Shown here: piece after piece, positions 14,156 to 22,161 of the stretch
Layout of the letters: every line of letters starts with the position of its first letter
Position numbering within the stretch: position 1 is the stretch's first letter
From: an uncultured Nitrosomonadaceae bacterium
GTDB taxonomy: Bacteria; Pseudomonadota; Gammaproteobacteria; Burkholderiales; Nitrosomonadaceae
Assembly (NCBI GenBank): GCA_905612245.1
Contig: CAJQRL010000055.1
Span: 1-39,263 of the forward strand
Length of the DNA stretch: 39,263 nucleotides
Direction of reading: 5' to 3'
Notes under the pieces: generated by a model
Told to the model about the DNA's origin: nothing
Seen by the model: the letters and a program-made list of their open reading frames with translations, nothing else
The model's database searches: none
Position numbers and translations under genes: made by a program

Positions 14156-15289
14156 ATGAATTTAATAAATAAAAGCCTTTGTAGTAGATTCCTATTAATA
14201 GGAACCATCTGTACCTTTTCAGTTTCATCTGTTCATGCGCACGATTATGGAATTGGTAATGCCAAGTCTTATCATGGGGGCGGAGCCTCTAGCCATGCGC
14301 CTATAGGGGTAATGGGTGATCATATGCATAAAAAAGGCGAATATATGCTTTCCTATCGCTTTAGTCATGGGCAAATGAACGGGAGCCGAATTGGAAATAA
14401 TCAAATAGGCACCAATGCTATTGGTGCAGGAAATTATGGCATGCCTGGTTTGATGGGCGGAAAATCAAGAGTAGTTCCTACTAAAATGAGCATGCAGATG
14501 CATATGTTTGGTGCTATGTATGCTCCAACTGACTGGTTAACACTTATGGTTATGGGAAGCTACGTAGAAAAAAGTATGGACCATACAACGTTTAATATGA
14601 TGGGTGGTGGCAAGTCTAGGTTTAATACAAAATCAGAAGGCATTGGTGATACGAAGGTCGGCGGAATGTTCAAATTATTTGAAACAAACCTTCTTAATAT
14701 TAACCACCATGCACACATCAACTTTAATATAAATATTCCGACCGGATCACTCAGTGAAAGATCTGGTGTGAATGCCCCAATGGGTACTGGCTCTCAGAAA
14801 AATATAAGAATGCCTTATCCTATGCAGATTGGTACTGGCACATTTGATGCGCTACCGGGAATAACCTATACCGGTAACTATAAAAAGCTGGCTTGGGGTG
14901 GTCAGTATATGGCTGAAATTCGTATGGAAAGAAACCAAGCCGGCTATTCTCATGGCGATAAGCATCAGCTTACTGCATGGAGTAGCTATGAATGGGCTCG
15001 ATATTTTAGTACTTCCGCACGTGTGATATACAAAACACAAGAAAGAATCAAGGGACAAGATCCTGCAATCTCTGCAATGATTCAAACCGCGAATCCACGC
15101 AACCATGGTGGGCGTCAGTTAGCAATTGCCTTCGGAGTTAATTTGGCTGGCCAGAAGGGAATTTTAAAAGGACACCGGTTATCTACCGAAATAATAATAC
15201 CTATGTACAGGGATTTACACGGGCCACAGCTTGAAACAGACTGGAGAATTGTTGCCGGTTGGCAGTATGCTAGTTCATTCCTGCAATAA
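14156..15289 (+). CDS. outer-membrane beta-barrel 'transporter' (MetA-type barrel family), Met/His-rich
   Basis: A 377-residue protein with a signal peptide (about 1-28, ending SSVHA). The mature sequence begins HDYGIGNAKSYHGGG and has the alternating hydrophobic/polar pattern of a beta-barrel (GEYMLSYRFSHGQMNG, MQMHMFGAMYAPTDWLTLMVMGSYVEKSM, KLAWGGQYMAEIRMER). The pattern DHMHKKGEYMLSYRF is typical of proteins annotated as transporter or in the phenol-degradation MetA barrel group. Methionine and histidine are very frequent (HMHKKG, MSMQMHMFG, FNMMGG), which in outer-membrane proteins often goes with copper handling; this is inference. It is monocistronic, preceded by a highly structured leader. 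No C-terminal aromatic signature is evident (ends SSFLQ). Confidence 0.65.
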   Translation: MNLINKSLCSRFLLIGTICTFSVSSVHAHDYGIGNAKSYHGGGASSHAPIGVMGDHMHKKGEYMLSYRFSHGQMNGSRIGNNQIGTNAIGAGNYGMPGLMGGKSRVVPTKMSMQMHMFGAMYAPTDWLTLMVMGSYVEKSMDHTTFNMMGGGKSRFNTKSEGIGDTKVGGMFKLFETNLLNINHHAHINFNINIPTGSLSERSGVNAPMGTGSQKNIRMPYPMQIGTGTFDALPGITYTGNYKKLAWGGQYMAEIRMERNQAGYSHGDKHQLTAWSSYEWARYFSTSARVIYKTQERIKGQDPAISAMIQTANPRNHGGRQLAIAFGVNLAGQKGILKGHRLSTEIIIPMYRDLHGPQLETDWRIVAGWQYASSFLQ

Positions 15290-15523: not shown

Positions 15524-15847
15524 TTATCCACGTATCAACATCTTAACAAATCCAAGGATTCGTTTCTTTATTTCCTTGCCCTTTGATTGAGCTTTTATCA
15601 GATTAAATGGTTCTTTTCCAAAAGAAACTGGCCATATCAACATAAAAAGCAAATAGGCCATAACAGTAAAGAATACTGCAGAAAAAAACTCTGCTGTAGA
15701 TAAATTTTCAAAGGATATAGTCGATGTAGCTATTTCACGGGCACTCGTGGCAAAATAGAAAACCAACATTAAAATAGCAACACCAGCCGCGACTCTCAAG
15801 CTTCGATTTAGAACTCTTTGCAACCAATGGGGTGGGTTATTTTTCAT
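15524..15847 (-). CDS. small two-pass membrane protein, unrecognised
   Basis: A 107-residue protein with two hydrophobic segments (about 17-36 and 50-72) and a basic C-terminal tail (KAQSKGKEIKKRILGFVKMLIRG), so an inner-membrane protein with cytoplasmic ends. The start codon lies 9 nt after the stop of the VOC-fold gene on the same strand, which suggests co-transcription with it and perhaps with the whole arsenosugar/PiT run. No family recognised; role unknown. Confidence 0.6.
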   Translation of the reverse strand: MKNNPPHWLQRVLNRSLRVAAGVAILMLVFYFATSAREIATSTISFENLSTAEFFSAVFFTVMAYLLFMLIWPVSFGKEPFNLIKAQSKGKEIKKRILGFVKMLIRG

Positions 15848-15856
15848 ATAATTTAT

Positions 15857-16240
15857 TTACGATTCCTCAATTTTGTAATCTGTTGTCAATATCTCTAATA
15901 GATGACCATTTGCATCACGAAAATAGATGCCACGGCCTTCATTATCATGATTCATTCTCATATTTTCTGAGGTATATGGACCGCTTCCATATTTGATATT
16001 TTCCATTTTCAAACGTTCAAATATAGTATCAAAATCTTGATCGGTTACCTTGAATGCGTAGTGATGAGGATCGAATTTATCGCTATTGGCAAAATCCAAA
16101 CAAAGTGTTTTATTAACTCTTACCACAATAAAACGCGAAAATTTTCCAATATATTTAAACCCAAATATCCTAGTATAAAATTCAGCAGATTTGACCTTGT
16201 CGTACGCCGGTATAATTGTATGGTTTAGTGTTATTTCCAT
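15857..16240 (-). CDS. VOC-fold (glyoxalase/dioxygenase-like) protein
   Basis: A 127-residue protein with the vicinal-oxygen-chelate fold in two beta-alpha-beta-beta-beta halves. Likely metal ligands are His7 (LNHTII), His59 or His60 (DPHHYAFKV) and Glu116 (GHLLEIL), fitting the His-His-Glu set of metal-dependent members. It lies 54 nt after the PiT gene on the same strand. In arsenic clusters VOC proteins include ArsI, the C-As lyase, but ArsI needs a vicinal cysteine pair for the trivalent arsenical and this protein has a single Cys (Cys47), so it is not a standard ArsI. Glyoxalase-like detoxification or a dioxygenase step on an unknown substrate remains possible. Confidence 0.8.
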   Translation of the reverse strand: MEITLNHTIIPAYDKVKSAEFYTRIFGFKYIGKFSRFIVVRVNKTLCLDFANSDKFDPHHYAFKVTDQDFDTIFERLKMENIKYGSGPYTSENMRMNHDNEGRGIYFRDANGHLLEILTTDYKIEES

Positions 16241-16294
16241 AGACCCTCTCTGAATTATAATCTAGACATGATTTGTGTAGCCATTTTTGATTTT

Positions 16295-17380
16295 TTATAA
16301 GACTGAGCTTAATAGCCATGCGACCCCAGCAGCAAATGGTAATGTCCCTATCCAGGATAATAAAATATTACGCAAAGTGTTCCAATCCAGTGTTCTGGCA
16401 CCTGCGCCAACTCCGACAATTGATCCTACTGAAACATGTGTTGTTGAGACAGGAAAACCAAATTTGCTAGCAACCAGAACCAAAGATGCTGTAATTAAAT
16501 TAGCAGTTAAACCTTGCTTATGATTCATTTTTGTTATGCGCTGGCTCATTGTCCTTGCAACTCGTTTTGCAAATAGCAACCCTCCTGCTGCCATTGCTAG
16601 TCCTATTACTACAGTAGAGGTTGTAGGTTGTAGTATTTGTGCTGCAAGAAGCAGTGCGGTTAATTTTGGCGTATCGTTTACACCGCGCGCAAAACAAATT
16701 GTCATTGCTGAAAATATATGTAGGCGATCCATAGTGCGCGATATATAGACTTTGATTGGAACTTTTATAGGATCGCAGCTGCTATTACTAGCAAGAATAA
16801 TGCTAGGTACAGAAAATTTAGTAACTAAAGAACCATCTGTTCCTGGGATTAATGTTTGTGTTGGTGTTACTAGGCAGGCACAATCTTTATCAGATTTAAT
16901 CGGTTTCATATCAAATAATTTATGAGCTAATACCCCGATAATAATGGCTATTATCGGACTGGCTATGAGCGGCAACATAAAAGTATTAGCCAATTTATCA
17001 AGATGTAAAATTCCCTCATTTTGTGCCATCCCAGCTCCAATAAGCCCGCCAATTAAGGCATGAGTAGTAGAAACTGGCAGTCCCATTTTTGTAGCCAGAG
17101 AGATGGTTACAGCCGCACCCGTTGCAACGCTTAAAATAAATAATGGTGTATTAGCCACTGTATCTGGTACTAGGCCCTTTCCAGAAAAATGTTGTACAAG
17201 CTCCTCAGCTAAAATTAATGAGGCGATACTACCTGCTACTGTTGCGGCAGTTGCCAAAAAAAGTGCCTGGCGATAGCTTAGCGTGTTTGTCCCCCATACT
17301 GTAGCAAAGCCTTTGAAGTTATCATTTGCACCATTACTAAAAGCAATGCACAAAGCAGCTATAATTAATAACCAGTCCAT
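16295..17380 (-). CDS. pit: PiT-family inorganic phosphate transporter
   Basis: A 361-residue polytopic membrane protein, somewhat shorter than E. coli PitA. Both PiT signatures are present: SNGANDNFKGFATVWGT near the N-terminus and FARGVNDTPKLTALL in the second half, plus the repeated GLPVSTTHALIGG / GFPVSTTHVSVGS segments of the inverted-repeat fold. About ten membrane segments. PiT proteins move divalent-metal-phosphate complexes by proton symport and also admit arsenate. Its start lies 46 nt after the arsM-like gene stop, so it is probably the continuation of the arsenosugar operon; the context suggests arsenate/phosphate entry coupled to arsenic conversion, which is inference. A role in plain low-affinity phosphate uptake is the alternative. 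Confidence 0.92.
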   Translation of the reverse strand: MDWLLIIAALCIAFSNGANDNFKGFATVWGTNTLSYRQALFLATAATVAGSIASLILAEELVQHFSGKGLVPDTVANTPLFILSVATGAAVTISLATKMGLPVSTTHALIGGLIGAGMAQNEGILHLDKLANTFMLPLIASPIIAIIIGVLAHKLFDMKPIKSDKDCACLVTPTQTLIPGTDGSLVTKFSVPSIILASNSSCDPIKVPIKVYISRTMDRLHIFSAMTICFARGVNDTPKLTALLLAAQILQPTTSTVVIGLAMAAGGLLFAKRVARTMSQRITKMNHKQGLTANLITASLVLVASKFGFPVSTTHVSVGSIVGVGAGARTLDWNTLRNILLSWIGTLPFAAGVAWLLSSVL

Positions 17381-17426
17381 TTCCTCAATCCTTTCGGTTT
17401 GATCTGGCGTATTTCCTGATAAATAA

Positions 17427-18467
17427 TCAGCAGCATTTTGAGCCTATTTTTGAGTTTTCTGTAGTATCAAATGGCATATTGCTACCATAGCTTGGGAAGA
17501 TTCCTAGATGACCTGAAAAGTCACCTATAAAATTGAAGTTATTTACATAGCGTGTGTCATGTAACATCCGCCAGGTATTACCACTTACAGGAAATTTCTT
17601 TCCTCTTTCTATATTATGATATTTGTCAAATATAAATTGATCGGCATGTTCAGGAATGTTACCAAGATAAATTACTTCCTGAGCATAGTCCTCGGACGAG
17701 GTCTCTAGATTTTTTAATTTAAATAGCCGATAAGTAGCAGAAACAAAATTAAGATCGCTAATACGAAGTGCCAACTCAGGGTTTGTAATTAATATAGGTT
17801 TATCTGTAACTAGCCTTGGATCTACAAATCCATGGCGACGTGCTAGCTGAAGAAAATCGTTCCAATATAGTGCGCCACCAAGACACTCACCATAGAGCAC
17901 CGGATCATTACGCACTGCGGTCGGGACTCGCCGATCTGCATATACATCTGAGAAATAGAACTCTCCACCCTCTTTAAGTAAAAGATTAATTCCATTTAGC
18001 ACCGCATCTTTATCCGGTGACAGGTTTACAACACAATTTGAAACAATCACATCAAAGCTATTTGGTTCTAAATTTAATTTATCTAGATGCTCGATATACC
18101 CTTTCAGAAAACTTACATTTTTATAACCAAAAACATCCGAATGGAAATCCTGATATTTGTTAGCAACTGTGAGCTGCTCATCTGTCATATCAACACCTAT
18201 CACTTCCCCTGATGATCCTACGAGCTGAGATAATAAGTAAACATCTCGTCCTGACCCACAGCCAAGATCCAGCACACGACAGCCTTCAAGGAGAGGAGGG
18301 CAGACCAACCCACAACCATAATAACGTGAAAGAATTTCTGGGTGAATTCGTGAAAGAAGTCGTTTTAGCCATGAAGGAGTAACGTTGGTATCGCAGCATG
18401 CGTTAGTTTTTAGATCATCTGTATGCTTAAGTTGATTACCGTAATAATCCTGAACAATTTCATGCAT
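17427..18467 (-). CDS. arsM: ArsM-like arsenite methyltransferase of the arsenosugar cluster
   Basis: A 346-residue SAM-dependent methyltransferase. The SAM site is LDLGCGSGRDVYLLS (67-81) with GVDMTDEQL as the acidic loop. Cysteines match the ArsM pattern: Cys24-Cys25 near the N-terminus (NACCDTN), Cys145 in the IVSNCVVNLSPDK motif and Cys195 in GECLGGALYWNDF; these correspond to the As(III)-binding cysteines of characterised ArsM. Extra cysteines at 52 and 56 and a terminal Cys-Cys pair are also present. It should methylate As(III), giving dimethylated intermediates for arsenosugars, in the cytoplasm. Its start is 114 nt after the upstream glycosyltransferase stop. The context (ArsS, two arsenosugar glycosyltransferases) supports arsenosugar synthesis rather than volatilisation alone. 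Confidence 0.9.
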   Translation of the reverse strand: MHEIVQDYYGNQLKHTDDLKTNACCDTNVTPSWLKRLLSRIHPEILSRYYGCGLVCPPLLEGCRVLDLGCGSGRDVYLLSQLVGSSGEVIGVDMTDEQLTVANKYQDFHSDVFGYKNVSFLKGYIEHLDKLNLEPNSFDVIVSNCVVNLSPDKDAVLNGINLLLKEGGEFYFSDVYADRRVPTAVRNDPVLYGECLGGALYWNDFLQLARRHGFVDPRLVTDKPILITNPELALRISDLNFVSATYRLFKLKNLETSSEDYAQEVIYLGNIPEHADQFIFDKYHNIERGKKFPVSGNTWRMLHDTRYVNNFNFIGDFSGHLGIFPSYGSNMPFDTTENSKIGSKCC

Positions 18468-18581
18468 AGCTATTCTCCTGATATTTGCAAAATAATGTCA
18501 TCAACTTTTCGTATTATTTAATTATAAGAAACTATGCTCTGTGTTTTTAGGCACAAAGACCATATCAATTAATATTGAAAA

Positions 18582-19202
18582 TTAGTAATCTGCTTCCCTC
18601 CATGTGCTGGGCAAAAACTTCAGATCTTTTGGCTCATCAATATCGTTCATACTAGGAAAAATTTTTATCGTTCGGCCTAATGTTTCCAGTCGTTCAGTTG
18701 TCTCAGCATAAACTGTATCCGTACTCCATTTAATAGATTCAAATAAAGACGCATGAAAAAAATTCAGTCCAAATAATACATAGCCACCATCAGTTGCAGG
18801 TATTAGAATCGAGTCAAAGTTATCCAAGCTTTCTTTAGCTCGTTGCAGATGAGTTGCTGTTAGTTGGGTACAATCTGTACCTATAATTAGGAGCGATTCA
18901 CCTCTATCAATAACACGCTGAGTAACCCGTGACAGCCGCTCTCCCAAATCACCCGTCCCTTGATCTGAGTACTCCAAATCACCTAATACCGCAAACTCCT
19001 GCCAAATCGAGTCTGTTGGTTGCGGGGTAACACACATTTCAACAGGTCCCACGCCAGCTTCCAGAGACTGGCTTAATGTATGAATTAACATTTTTTTTGC
19101 TAGATTAGCCGCTCCTTGTTTCCCAAGAGCAGGTATAAGCCGTGTCTTAGTAAAACCAGCTTGCGCTGCCTTAGTAAAAATTATTATACGAACGGGCTTC
19201 AT
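18582..19202 (-). CDS. arsenosugar-type glycosyltransferase (TIGR04282-like)
   Basis: A 206-residue GT-A-fold enzyme related to nucleotidyl/glycosyl transferases. Visible landmarks: IIFTKAAQAGFTKTRLIPALG (N-terminal nucleotide-binding region with KTRL), GDLGERLSRVT, IIGTDCTQLTATHL (metal-binding Asp region) and LIPATDGGYVLFGL. This is the TIGR04282 type, described from clusters with radical SAM ArsS and TIGR04283. It shares a 4-nt overlap with the upstream glycosyltransferase gene, so the two are translationally coupled. The exact donor and acceptor are unknown; a role in building the arsenic-linked sugar is inferred from context. Confidence 0.88.
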   Translation of the reverse strand: MKPVRIIIFTKAAQAGFTKTRLIPALGKQGAANLAKKMLIHTLSQSLEAGVGPVEMCVTPQPTDSIWQEFAVLGDLEYSDQGTGDLGERLSRVTQRVIDRGESLLIIGTDCTQLTATHLQRAKESLDNFDSILIPATDGGYVLFGLNFFHASLFESIKWSTDTVYAETTERLETLGRTIKIFPSMNDIDEPKDLKFLPSTWREADY

Positions 19203-19876
19203 TTGTATTTCTCCGCTAGCTGGCTAGCCGGAATACCCCGCCAATAATCCCAGCGAAGTCTCCACATAAGAAAAATAGTTTGCCAGACTCCATATAGCTC
19301 CCAGCGACGCCCTGAAGTTACGACGTGGCAATTAATACAACTAGGGGGTGAAAGCCTGCATAGCTTCTTTGATAGCGCAATATCTTCCATTAATAACTGT
19401 TCAGGGAAACAACCCGCTTTTAGGAAAGCTTCTTTTTTTACAAATATAACTTGATCTCCAGTAACAATATTCGTTAAGTATGAACGTAGATTCATCATAA
19501 ATCCGACTATGCAAAGTACCTTTGAATGTCCGTCTATACGAATCCTAAAATACCCCCAACAAGATGATGGGTTGTCAGAAAATATTTGTTTAATCAGTAA
19601 ATCCGCCGTATCCGGAAGTTGTGTATCAGCATGCAGGAATAATAGTGCTGAGCCGCTAGCCTTCTCTACACCAATATTCATTTGGTGGGCACGACCACAG
19701 GTGGTTTTTTCCACCCTAAACCCTTTGTTTTCTGCTATTTCAACTGAATTATCAGTGCTACCTCCGTCAACAATAATTATTTCGCAATTGTTTTTCCGAA
19801 ATTGTTCTAACTCTTTAAATAACTGAGGAATTCTAATGGCCTCATTCAATATAGGTATGATTATAGATAGCCTCAT
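19199..19876 (-). CDS. family 2 glycosyltransferase of arsenosugar clusters (TIGR04283-like)
   Basis: A 225-residue GT2 enzyme: LSIIIPILNEAIRIPQLFKEL at the N-terminus, IIIVDGGSTDNSVEIAE (nucleotide-binding Asp), ALLFLHADTQLP (DxD-like HAD), and TGDQVIFVKKEAF...LLMEDIALSKKL (ED catalytic region), then HVVTSGRRWE. This pattern is TIGR04283, a short GT2 group found beside TIGR04282 and ArsS. It overlaps the next gene by 4 nt. A stem-loop followed by a weak T-run (19921-19943) lies in the 104-nt gap upstream, so expression relative to ArsS may be attenuated. Confidence 0.9.
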   Translation of the reverse strand: MRLSIIIPILNEAIRIPQLFKELEQFRKNNCEIIIVDGGSTDNSVEIAENKGFRVEKTTCGRAHQMNIGVEKASGSALLFLHADTQLPDTADLLIKQIFSDNPSSCWGYFRIRIDGHSKVLCIVGFMMNLRSYLTNIVTGDQVIFVKKEAFLKAGCFPEQLLMEDIALSKKLCRLSPPSCINCHVVTSGRRWELYGVWQTIFLMWRLRWDYWRGIPASQLAEKYK

Positions 19877-19920
19877 AAATAATTAAGACGCAGGGTCTGC
19901 TATCTTTTCCAAGAACAAAA

Positions 19921-19943
19921 TCGAACAATTAATAATTGTTCGA
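19921..19943 (-). terminator. intra-operon stem-loop, possible attenuator
   Basis: Perfect 10-bp inverted repeat TCGAACAATT (19921-19930) / AATTGTTCGA (19934-19943) with a 3-nt loop. Read on the minus strand it is followed by TTTTGTT, a short imperfect U-tract, in the gap between the TVP38-type and GT2 genes. It could partially terminate transcription or form a processing site that separates the ArsS-TVP38 part from the glycosyltransferase part. Confidence 0.5.
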
Positions 19944-19980
19944 TCTACTCTAAATTTTTTACAATTTCCAGCAAGTGAAT

Positions 19981-20661
19981 TCATTTCTGTATACCATCCC
20001 TGCGTTGTAGAAAACGTAAGATCCATCTGGAAAATAATGGAAAGACTCCTAATAAAGTAAATGAAATAAGCAGCCCGGGTGAGATGATACTGCTAAGCCC
20101 TGATATTTTAGCTAGATGTGTGCCAGCATTTACGAAAACAAGCGTGCCAGCAAGCATTCCGACCTGGCTTACCCAATAATAATTAATAGTACGAATTGGA
20201 GTTAATCCCATTAAAAGATTAACGATAAAAAAAGGAAATATCGGTACAAGACGGAGGGTAAATAGATAGAAATTTCCATCTTTTAAAATGCCATTATTAA
20301 TAATATCTAGTCGATCCCCAAAGCGCGCCTGAATAGAGTCTCGAAACAGATAGCGGGAGACTAGAAATGAAAATGTAGCACCGATACTTGAGGCAAAGGA
20401 CACGATTATTGTTCCCCACAGTAGGCCAAACAAGGCGCCAGATGCAAGAGTCATTGCTGCAGCACCTGGTAAAGAAAGTGAAGTAACCGTAATGTAAAGC
20501 AAGAAAAAAATTAGCCCTGTCAGTACTGGTGAGTCTATGCGCCACGTTTCAAACTGCCCCAAACTTGACTTAAGGCTTTGAAAAGAAAGGTAGGAATTAA
20601 GATCGAATACAAAAAATATTGATATGAGGAATATTAAAAGAAAAATTATTAATTTTCTCAT
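19981..20661 (-). CDS. TVP38/TMEM64 (DedA-superfamily-like) membrane protein
   Basis: A 226-residue membrane protein with about five to six hydrophobic segments. The family core SNARE-associated/VTT motif is visible: LSLPGAAAMTLASGALFGLLWGTIIVSFASSIGATFSFLVSRYLFRDSI, followed by RLVPIFPFFIVNLLMGLTPI and the G-rich region MLAGTLVFVNAGTHL. TVP38 proteins are thought to act in lipid or small-molecule transport across the inner membrane. It starts 9 nt after the ArsS stop, so it is co-transcribed with it, which fits the repeated occurrence of TVP38 genes in such clusters. A role in moving arsenosugar or its lipid precursor is speculative. Confidence 0.88.
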   Translation of the reverse strand: MRKLIIFLLIFLISIFFVFDLNSYLSFQSLKSSLGQFETWRIDSPVLTGLIFFLLYITVTSLSLPGAAAMTLASGALFGLLWGTIIVSFASSIGATFSFLVSRYLFRDSIQARFGDRLDIINNGILKDGNFYLFTLRLVPIFPFFIVNLLMGLTPIRTINYYWVSQVGMLAGTLVFVNAGTHLAKISGLSSIISPGLLISFTLLGVFPLFSRWILRFLQRRDGIQK

Positions 20662-20670
20662 TATCTGGTT

Positions 20671-21654
20671 TTATTTCTGTAATGTTCCACTACAGCTACT
20701 ACCCTGACCAGCAGTACAACCGTAGCAGTGATCAGCCACCTGAATTGACCTGCCAAGCGGGTCTTCATTTAATAAATCACGCAAATGAGGTTTTCTCTTT
20801 GATTTTTCTGTTGATAGCCCTCTCATGCCTAACTCTAAGCCTAATTGTTGATTAAAATCACAGTCGGATAGATAACCTTTCCAGTCAACGCTGATAAGAT
20901 TGCGACACATTACGTTTGAATAATTTATATCCGTAAAATTATCTTTTAGTAATTGTATGTAGTCATTAAACTGGCCCTTTGAAATCAACGTAGAACCAAA
21001 ACGCTGTATAGGCATATTAGTTATAGTAAACAGCTCATTAAATATAATCCCAAAATTTTCATAGAGCTCTTTTTTATAAATAGATTGCAGCTTAGTTTGG
21101 TCAGGAGGTAATGAAGGGCCTTGTGGGTTATATGCCAGATTAAGTACCAGCCCTGTATTCTTGCATCCATAGCCGAGCGAATTTAATTCTTGTAAAGCAA
21201 GGATACTTTTATCAAACACACCATCCCCACGTTGTTTATCAACATCAGCCATGGAATAGAAGGGAAGTGAGGCACTGATTTCTACCTTCTGTCTGGCTAG
21301 GAATGTAGCTAAATCACCCTGACCGGGCTCATATAGAATTGTTAAATTACAGCGGTCAATAACTTTGATTCCTAAGGCGCTAGCTTCCTTTACCAGTGAT
21401 CTAAATCCCTCATGTAATTCAGGGGCGCCACCAGTGAGGTCAAGTGTTGTAATGTTCCTAGCTACAAGCACCTCTGGGATAAGCATAAGTGTTTCGTTAT
21501 CCATCATTTCACTACGTGTTGGTCCCGCATTGACATGACAGTGTAGGCAGGACTGATTACAGCGATAACCAAGGTTAACTTGAAGAGTTATAAGCTGCTC
21601 ACGATTTAGGCTCGGAAACTTCGTCGGTTGCAGCAGTGGCAGAGTGGGATGCAT
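20671..21654 (-). CDS. arsS: arsenosugar biosynthesis radical SAM protein ArsS
   Basis: A 327-residue radical SAM enzyme. The cluster motif CNQSCLHC (Cys32, Cys36, Cys39; Cx3Cx2C) lies in LGYRCNQSCLHCHVNAGP, followed by LDLTGGAPELHEGFR. The C-terminus is Cys-rich (Cys310, Cys313, Cys321), as in the family once named radical SAM/Cys-rich and later shown in cyanobacteria to be ArsS, which with ArsM makes arsenosugars by joining the 5'-deoxyadenosyl group to dimethylarsenical. The length is typical. It is the first gene of the minus-strand arsenosugar operon, with about 250 nt of promoter region between it and the divergent zinc-ribbon gene; no ArsR gene is nearby. Confidence 0.93.
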   Translation of the reverse strand: MHPTLPLLQPTKFPSLNREQLITLQVNLGYRCNQSCLHCHVNAGPTRSEMMDNETLMLIPEVLVARNITTLDLTGGAPELHEGFRSLVKEASALGIKVIDRCNLTILYEPGQGDLATFLARQKVEISASLPFYSMADVDKQRGDGVFDKSILALQELNSLGYGCKNTGLVLNLAYNPQGPSLPPDQTKLQSIYKKELYENFGIIFNELFTITNMPIQRFGSTLISKGQFNDYIQLLKDNFTDINYSNVMCRNLISVDWKGYLSDCDFNQQLGLELGMRGLSTEKSKRKPHLRDLLNEDPLGRSIQVADHCYGCTAGQGSSCSGTLQK

Positions 21655-21903
21655 ACCTTATCCTGGATAATTATAAAAATTCTGTTATCGCACACTGGAA
21701 AATAGTAAATACTATTGGTAGTAGTAATAATACATACTATGGACAGACTGGTTACATTTTATTCAAACTTTTAAAGAGTCTTGTCTGAATCAGGCGTAAT
21801 TAGTATGAATCATTGTAAATTTGGATTACAGAACTGATACAATAATTACTATATTATTCCAATATATATCAATATATTGGATGAAAAAATAAAGGAGGTT
21901 TTT

Positions 21904-22161
21904 GTGGAATTGATTAATATAGTATGGATGATATTTTGGCTCGCCTGTGTAGTTGCCTCTACAATTATTGGCTCTCCTAAAGAAATGGGGATTAGCTCCT
22001 TCTTTTATGGATTGATACTTGGTCCACTCGGAGTTGTTCTTGTTTTTATCAGCAAAGGAAAAAAAGTGACATGCCCATTCTGTAAGAAGCTAAATTACAT
22101 AACTTACAAAGTTTGTATACATTGTGATAAACAAATCAATGGCATCAAGAAGACAGAATAA
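21904..22161 (+). CDS. small membrane protein with C-terminal zinc ribbon
   Basis: An 85-residue protein. I start it at GTG 21904, which has a near-perfect AAGGAGG (21892-21898) 5 nt upstream; the in-frame ATG at 21877 lies before that site and would bury it in coding sequence. Two hydrophobic segments (about 2-20 and 30-48, with LGPLGVVLVFI) are followed by a cytoplasmic CPFCKKLNYITYKVCIHC knuckle (CxxC...CxxC), the four cysteines of a zinc ribbon. Such small anchored zinc-ribbon proteins are widespread and mostly uncharacterised. It precedes the YihY gene by 49 nt and could be co-transcribed with it; it is divergent from the arsenosugar operon. Confidence 0.7.
   Translation: MELINIVWMIFWLACVVASTIIGSPKEMGISSFFYGLILGPLGVVLVFISKGKKVTCPFCKKLNYITYKVCIHCDKQINGIKKTE

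Follow-up and report, generated by a model that had tools for sequence, protein, structure and literature searches.

Why should a phosphate transporter stand at the end of an operon that probably makes arsenosugars, and where does that operon stop? The question is raised by a 39,263-nucleotide stretch of DNA (the window), contig 55 of a 1.0-Mb, 72% complete genome of an uncultured Nitrosomonadaceae bacterium. Its closest named records are betaproteobacterial and include the metagenome-assembled genome Nitrosospira sp. SZUA-177 (L054; L numbers are loci and G numbers genomes throughout). An earlier note, made from the sequence alone, read eight genes here as one operon: arsS, a TVP38 membrane protein, two glycosyltransferases, arsM, a PiT-family transporter, a VOC-fold protein and a 107-residue membrane protein. 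PiT is the last of these genes with a conserved link to arsM, and ArsMs of this type are recurrently linked with either PiT or Pst. The pairing looks functional because an unrelated phosphate transporter takes the place of PiT in some related clusters. We recognised no description of PiT or Pst in arsenosugar operons in the open-licence literature, judged largely by listings.

PiT or Pst behind arsM

Gene maps were made for the best 80 of 386 relatives of the window's ArsM in named genomes. Two of these loci come from the window's own genus (L054 and L055), L101 duplicates L100, and three end shortly after arsM, leaving 77 with downstream DNA visible. In 24 of the 77 a PiT gene begins within about 0.5 kb after arsM and in the same orientation; 23 were counted by this positional rule and one, L096, was added since its open reading frame had been called too long. 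A single locus (L126) has PiT upstream of arsM. PstS follows arsM in 12 loci, within 0.55 kb in 11 of them and at 1.9 kb in L109. The two transporters never occur together in the 80 loci (p = 0.007 if they were independent). Across the 80, ArsS is seen in 46, a fusion of TVP38 to an oxidoreductase in 36, DUF3047 in 19, PiT in 25 and PstS in 12, and the VOC gene and the 107-residue gene in one each, both in the locus of G003. The PiTs of L076 and L130 are divergent. In Polaromonas sp. P2-4 the PiT gene behind arsM is split into several frames (L129:11069-12467). One carrier of the operon with pit, Herminiimonas fonticola S-94 (L059), is in culture.

On a tree of 82 ArsM rows, the slot behind arsM (PiT, Pst or neither) needs at least 28 changes, with a minimum of 9 for PiT versus Pst. 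Resolution of the tree is only partial; when the count is restricted to branches with good support, 9 changes are required for PiT and 4 for Pst.

ArsS scores over its cut-off in 23 of 101 relatives and in 4 of the 8 genomes of the genus. The earlier note proposed comparing the neighbourhoods of ArsS homologues, and we mapped 22 such loci besides the window, some of them cut by contig ends, including L035 of the genus. The comparison bears out the association for the five loci that carry this type of ArsM, four of which have a transporter (PiT in L044 and L051, both of the genus; Pst in L032 and L036; neither in L049), but with other ArsMs a transporter is rare.

Co-occurrence in the family points the same way. 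We searched 61 family genomes for ArsS and 37 of them also for PiT, which was found in 4 of 7 genomes with ArsS and 0 of 30 without (p = 5e-4, kinship ignored). The four, G000 (the window's genome), G002, G003 and G007, are the genus members that carry ArsS, so within the genus the count is 4 of 4 against 0 of 4 (p = 0.029, kinship again ignored). Among 72,556 plasmid records one alone matches PiT at E <= 1e-30: an Acinetobacter portensis plasmid, whose PiT is 55% identical and whose operon has the same order. A survey of 369 genomes of the class gave five other PiTs of this type, of which L229 lies in an arsenosugar operon and L232 beside an arsM-like gene.

Genes of the window and the extent of the operon

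The features of the block are these:

20671..21654, minus strand: arsS, arsenosugar radical SAM enzyme (TIGR04167, 431 bits, cut-off 300)
19981..20661, minus strand: TVP38/VTT membrane protein without its FAD oxidoreductase half (VTT domain, PF09335)
19199..19876, minus strand: TIGR04283 glycosyltransferase (256 bits, cut-off 182)
18582..19202, minus strand: TIGR04282 glycosyltransferase (195 bits, cut-off 134)
17427..18467, minus strand: arsM, arsenite methyltransferase (C52, C145 and C195 kept; C258, C295 and C327 replaced)
16295..17380, minus strand: PiT-family transporter with a CxC...C loop at C167, C169 and C202 (PF01384, 233 bits, cut-off 33.7)
15857..16240, minus strand: VOC-fold protein (PF00903)
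15524..15847, minus strand: 107-residue membrane protein, a flanking chromosomal gene by comparison with the empty site
21655..21876, no strand: spacer from arsS to the small gene at 21877, whose small-gene side matches the empty-site spacer
19918..19946, minus strand: perfect stem with 12-bp arms, a 1-nucleotide loop and a T-rich tail, a possible terminator in the gap between TVP38 and the glycosyltransferase

The eight reading frames, their common strand and the gaps of 9, 104, -4, 114, 46, 54 and 9 nucleotides were exactly as the earlier note had them, and its arsenosugar enzyme set was confirmed: ArsS is over its curated cut-off, and TIGR04282, TIGR04283 and ArsM are all in the cluster. 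Judged by their families, arsS, tvp38, the two glycosyltransferases and arsM are probably an arsenosugar operon, and arsenosugar production is predicted. The extent proposed for the operon holds as far as PiT, is weak for the VOC protein and fails for the 107-residue protein.

The note was also right that no arsenate reductase or regulator lies within the block. No ArsR (HTH_5) match was found in the window's own genome, where absences are weak because it is only 72% complete. Acr3 has no match in the 8 genus genomes, and an ArsC-superfamily match is present in 7 of the 8 whether ArsS is there or not. A promoter scan gave 28 matches against 28.2 in shuffled sequence, no excess.

Decay of the whole operon was considered and ruled out by its intact frames and low pN/pS (0.17-0.38 in operon genes against 0.18-0.31 in the flanks, with synonymous sites near saturation). 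That all the genes share a single transcript is in doubt because of the inverted repeat and its T-rich tail in the gap between TVP38 and the glycosyltransferase, which may end or weaken transcription. The pattern was not found in the other loci examined, except in copies of the window's locus, and terminator-like sites in the region number 11 against 6.3 +/- 2.1 in shuffles.

The PiT branch and its loop

The window's PiT has the PHO4 domain in two repeats and, aligned to 6L85, keeps both PVSTTH motifs and the ND pairs. The arsM-linked PiTs of its kind read GANDNFK and NDTPK where ordinary PiTs mostly read GFHDxAN and NDxQK. On a tree of 44 rows, 28 arsM-linked and 3 unlinked PiTs form one branch with support 99, apart from 13 ordinary ones; some branches of this tree are long, and linked and ordinary rows were gathered by different routes. 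The stretch between the repeats is longer in the branch, and it holds a CxC and a third cysteine 20-60 residues on. This loop is present in 27 of the 28 linked members (L226 lacks it), in all 3 unlinked members and in 0 of the 13 ordinary PiTs. It was rejected as a mark of arsM linkage since the three unlinked members carry it too. The predicted structure of the transporter has a mean pLDDT of 44, too low for use.

A speculative idea, which we doubt, is that the arsM-linked PiTs are arsenic-responsive phosphate transporters whose CxC...C loop would bind trivalent arsenic or another soft ligand inside the cell and gate the transporter. If true, such gating would match phosphate and arsenate entry to arsenosugar synthesis.

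In the region L228:4634-9836 one of the unlinked branch members, 55% identical, comes after two Tes/TrsS-like radical SAM proteins, whose scores are below cut-off, and an SDR protein. The region is possibly another cluster using this transporter type.

The role of the transporter

On balance we believe this to be an arsenosugar operon in which a dedicated PiT-type transporter is the last functional gene, supplying phosphate while arsenate is turned into arsenosugar. The substrate, direction and regulation of the system are what we infer. We take the chemistry of ArsM and ArsS from the known families, with work on ArsS reportedly by Cheng et al. in 2021, a study referenced in PMC12159101. ArsM would methylate arsenite, ArsS would transfer a 5'-deoxyadenosyl group and the glycosyltransferases would finish the sugar. 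PiT would keep phosphate entering a cell that meets arsenate; some arsenate would enter alongside and be drained into arsenosugar. PstSCAB stands in the position of PiT in some relatives. It is this replacement by Pst that points to phosphate supply, rather than arsenate entry, as the purpose. An operon-borne phosphate-type transporter drawn from two unrelated families would give a genetic handle on how arsenosugar makers coordinate arsenic and phosphate.

Several observations weigh against a dedicated phosphate supplier. The 80 ArsM loci were picked by similarity to the window's ArsM and share ancestry, and 40 of the 77 have neither PiT nor PstS. The slot is also somewhat inherited, needing 28 changes against a shuffled mean of 34.3, with a count as low in 3 of 200 shuffles. 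Among the 22 ArsS-anchored loci PiT is found in 2, both in the window's genus, and Pst in 3; the 17 with another ArsM or none detected hold one Pst (L045) and no PiT. Of the 34 ArsM-anchored loci without arsS in view, 12 still carry a transporter (8 PiT, 4 Pst), and the tie is therefore to ArsM. The earlier claim that PiT belongs with the operon thus survives in the neighbourhoods and in the family co-occurrence, but for this type of ArsM and not for ArsS generally. Three of the five PiTs from the class survey (L228, L230 and L231) have no arsM within about 8 kb, and the best NCBIfam match of the window's PiT is the CysP sulfate permease NF053884, at 98 bits where the cut-off is 400.

The relatedness of the loci, the 40 without a transporter and the slot's lower scatter on the ArsM tree than in shuffles are also what passive cargo would give, PiT being held in place by the shared descent of the operon. 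We find this quite improbable: the slot still switches state repeatedly, and a phosphate transporter unrelated to PiT has come to occupy it; in Cupriavidus (L226), moreover, a different arsM-like gene has a PiT upstream of it. The distinct branch, its changed signature motifs, the CxC...C loop and the weak similarity to a sulfate permease could instead mean that these PiTs move something else, such as a methylated arsenical, an arsenosugar precursor or sulfate. This too seems improbable to us, given that the PiT hallmarks (two PVSTTH motifs and the ND pairs) are intact in the window's protein and that Pst alternates with PiT at the same place.

PiT transporters admit arsenate, and this one stands behind arsM. 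It might then import arsenate deliberately, as raw material or for detoxification, with the operon converting it at once, a coupling that the earlier note inferred. We consider this unlikely, though it deserves to be taken seriously. Pst replaces PiT in 12 of the 77 loci, and there is no arsenate reductase in the block. Passages of PMC3954881 and PMC3834237 refer to Pst proteins with a preference for phosphate over arsenate, and the former also mentions one that binds both.

ArsM and a stripped-down operon

The best NCBIfam match of the window's ArsM is NF008823, at 165 bits against a cut-off of 263, and no cut-off is reached among the best 25 of 44 models. The homologue in G003, 75% identical to it, has a predicted structure with a mean pLDDT of 84, and the first 13 Foldseek matches of that model are solved ArsM/AS3MT chains with TM scores of 0.77-0.82 by query length. 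Aligning the G003 homologue to solved ArsMs places the As(III)-site cysteines at C52, C145 and C195, which are present in 82 of 82 ArsM rows. We take these to correspond to C72, C174 and C224 of CmArsM.

Three further cysteines, C258, C295 and C327, are found in all 81 other rows, and in the window they are Ser, Ser and Tyr. Its codons there are one or two bases off the Cys codons of its relatives, which makes sequencing error an unlikely cause. The likeness to canonical ArsM (5EVJ, 4FR0 and 6CX6) lies in the fold, with TM scores of 0.80-0.82 by query length, and in the three arsenic-site cysteines. Where this subfamily has the three further cysteines, 5EVJ has A, A and S; R and D occupy the first two positions in both 4FR0 and 4KW7, and the third falls outside the alignment shown.

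The window's operon has lost other parts as well. In G003 and G007 a single protein joins TVP38 to an FAD oxidoreductase resembling MerA, Lpd and glutathione reductase; in G002 the two parts are spread over two contigs. The window's TVP38 matches only residues 2-224 of the 715-residue fusion protein of G007, and a search of the window's own genome with the oxidoreductase half gave no match above 31%. The perfect 12-bp inverted repeat sits in the gap at 19877-19980, where that half is missing. DUF3047 (PF11249) is present in G002, G003 and G007 and was not found in the window's genome. L075 and L121 also have TVP38 without an oxidoreductase in view, and they keep all three cysteines, which rules out the idea that loss of the oxidoreductase forces loss of the ArsM cysteines. 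The oxidoreductase half, DUF3047 and three otherwise invariant ArsM cysteines, all lost naturally here, are parts that the system may be able to do without, and their loss hints at some of them acting together.

The chromosomal site

Three genomes of the genus (G004, G005 and G001; L188-L190) are syntenic with the window on both sides and lack the block. At this empty site the 107-residue gene adjoins the small gene that lies beyond arsS in the window (21877-22161), across 268, 268 and 180 nucleotides respectively. The far side of the empty-site spacer is still recognisable upstream of arsS. At the other end homology resumes about 13 nucleotides before the start codon of the 107-residue gene, which puts the VOC stop codon at the junction; the 9-nucleotide gap between the two genes is therefore that junction and not operon design. 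Read-through into the 107-residue gene is possible. The gene is present in G001, G004 and G005, all without ArsS, and in G003, and it was not found in G002, G006 or G007. The earlier note counted it as an operon member, which is refuted by three block-free genomes that have it at this very position on the chromosome; it is chromosomal flank and an ordinary neighbour.

In G003 the block is at the same site as in the window. G006 has a different arrangement at the DnaJ gene, and in G002 and G007 the small gene is beside arsS, on contigs that break in or before pit. Operon and flanks are each 62-77% identical to G003 (57% for the small gene at 21877), and the G+C content of the operon is 0.389 against 0.383 and 0.390 in the flanks. 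On this equal divergence and composition we rejected a recent horizontal arrival of the block, and its loss from G001, G004 and G005 is the better reading. Against loss, the flanking DnaJ gene is 90-95% identical in those three genomes and only 77% in G003. Another gene is also missing from the three empty-site genomes: it encodes 377 residues (14156-15289; a weak Phenol_MetA_deg match, below cut-off) and lies between the TerB/DnaJ gene and the 107-residue gene.

The VOC protein

The contigs of G000 and G003 extend past pit, and in both the next gene is VOC. Searches of the four genus genomes without ArsS, and of G002 and G007, did not find it, so that within the genus it is confined to two genomes, both carriers of the block. 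Other members of the family often have the gene without ArsS, and it lies in other surroundings there in the gene maps examined (L196 and L197 in part). Its presence in 5 of 7 family genomes with ArsS and 16 of 30 without (p = 0.67) tells against the accessory step suggested in the earlier note and rules out a general step of arsenosugar synthesis. The note was correct that the protein lacks the vicinal cysteine pair of ArsI, for it has one cysteine in all. It keeps His7, His59/60 and Glu116, the usual positions of a VOC metal site. Compared with the Fos fosfomycin resistance models it scores 41 bits at best, short of the cut-off of 180. The VOC protein, last in the block, is probably a passenger with an unrelated function. 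In L193, L194, L200 and L201 the family's VOC gene adjoins a gene of SelO-like appearance.

Comparison with known systems

Within the genus the closest counterpart is the arsS operon of G003 (SMXG01000032.1; L055/L044), which shares the site, order, PiT and VOC of the window and differs in having the oxidoreductase fusion, DUF3047 and about 800 nucleotides between VOC and the 107-residue gene. Further away, Acinetobacter portensis plasmid pJNE5-X3 (NZ_CP096121.1) carries arsS, TVP38, TIGR04283, TIGR04282, a methyltransferase and an inorganic phosphate transporter in the order and direction of the window. Unlike the window it has the TVP38-FAD oxidoreductase fusion and DUF547; mtnP adjoins its operon on the other strand, and no VOC is annotated. 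This plasmid, named pJNE5-X3_NDM-1, has transposition genes (TniQ, TniB and TnsA-like) near the arsenosugar operon (L225:2680-10971).

Extra genes recur around the 80 ArsM loci (L054-L133): an ECF-like sigma factor in 19, a zf-HC2-like gene in 14, an MTA-phosphorylase-like gene in 20 and DUF547 in 11, with labels that rest on homologues and partly on resemblance. The window shows none of the four. The MTA-phosphorylase-like product could remove adenine from the ArsS product.

Phosphate transporter genes adjoin arsenic genes in another setting, the aioBA/ars/pst arsenic islands, where pst lies beside aio genes and is read as serving phosphate use under high arsenic (PMC3834237); pst beside aio genes is also reported in PMC3954881. 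The islands of PMC3834237 differ in that they concern arsenite oxidation, not arsenosugars, and in that the transporter is Pst or Phn; the terms pit, arsM and arsenosugar do not occur in that text. Arsenosugar operons are already known, and a phosphate-type transporter tied to one type of ArsM is a new variant of them.

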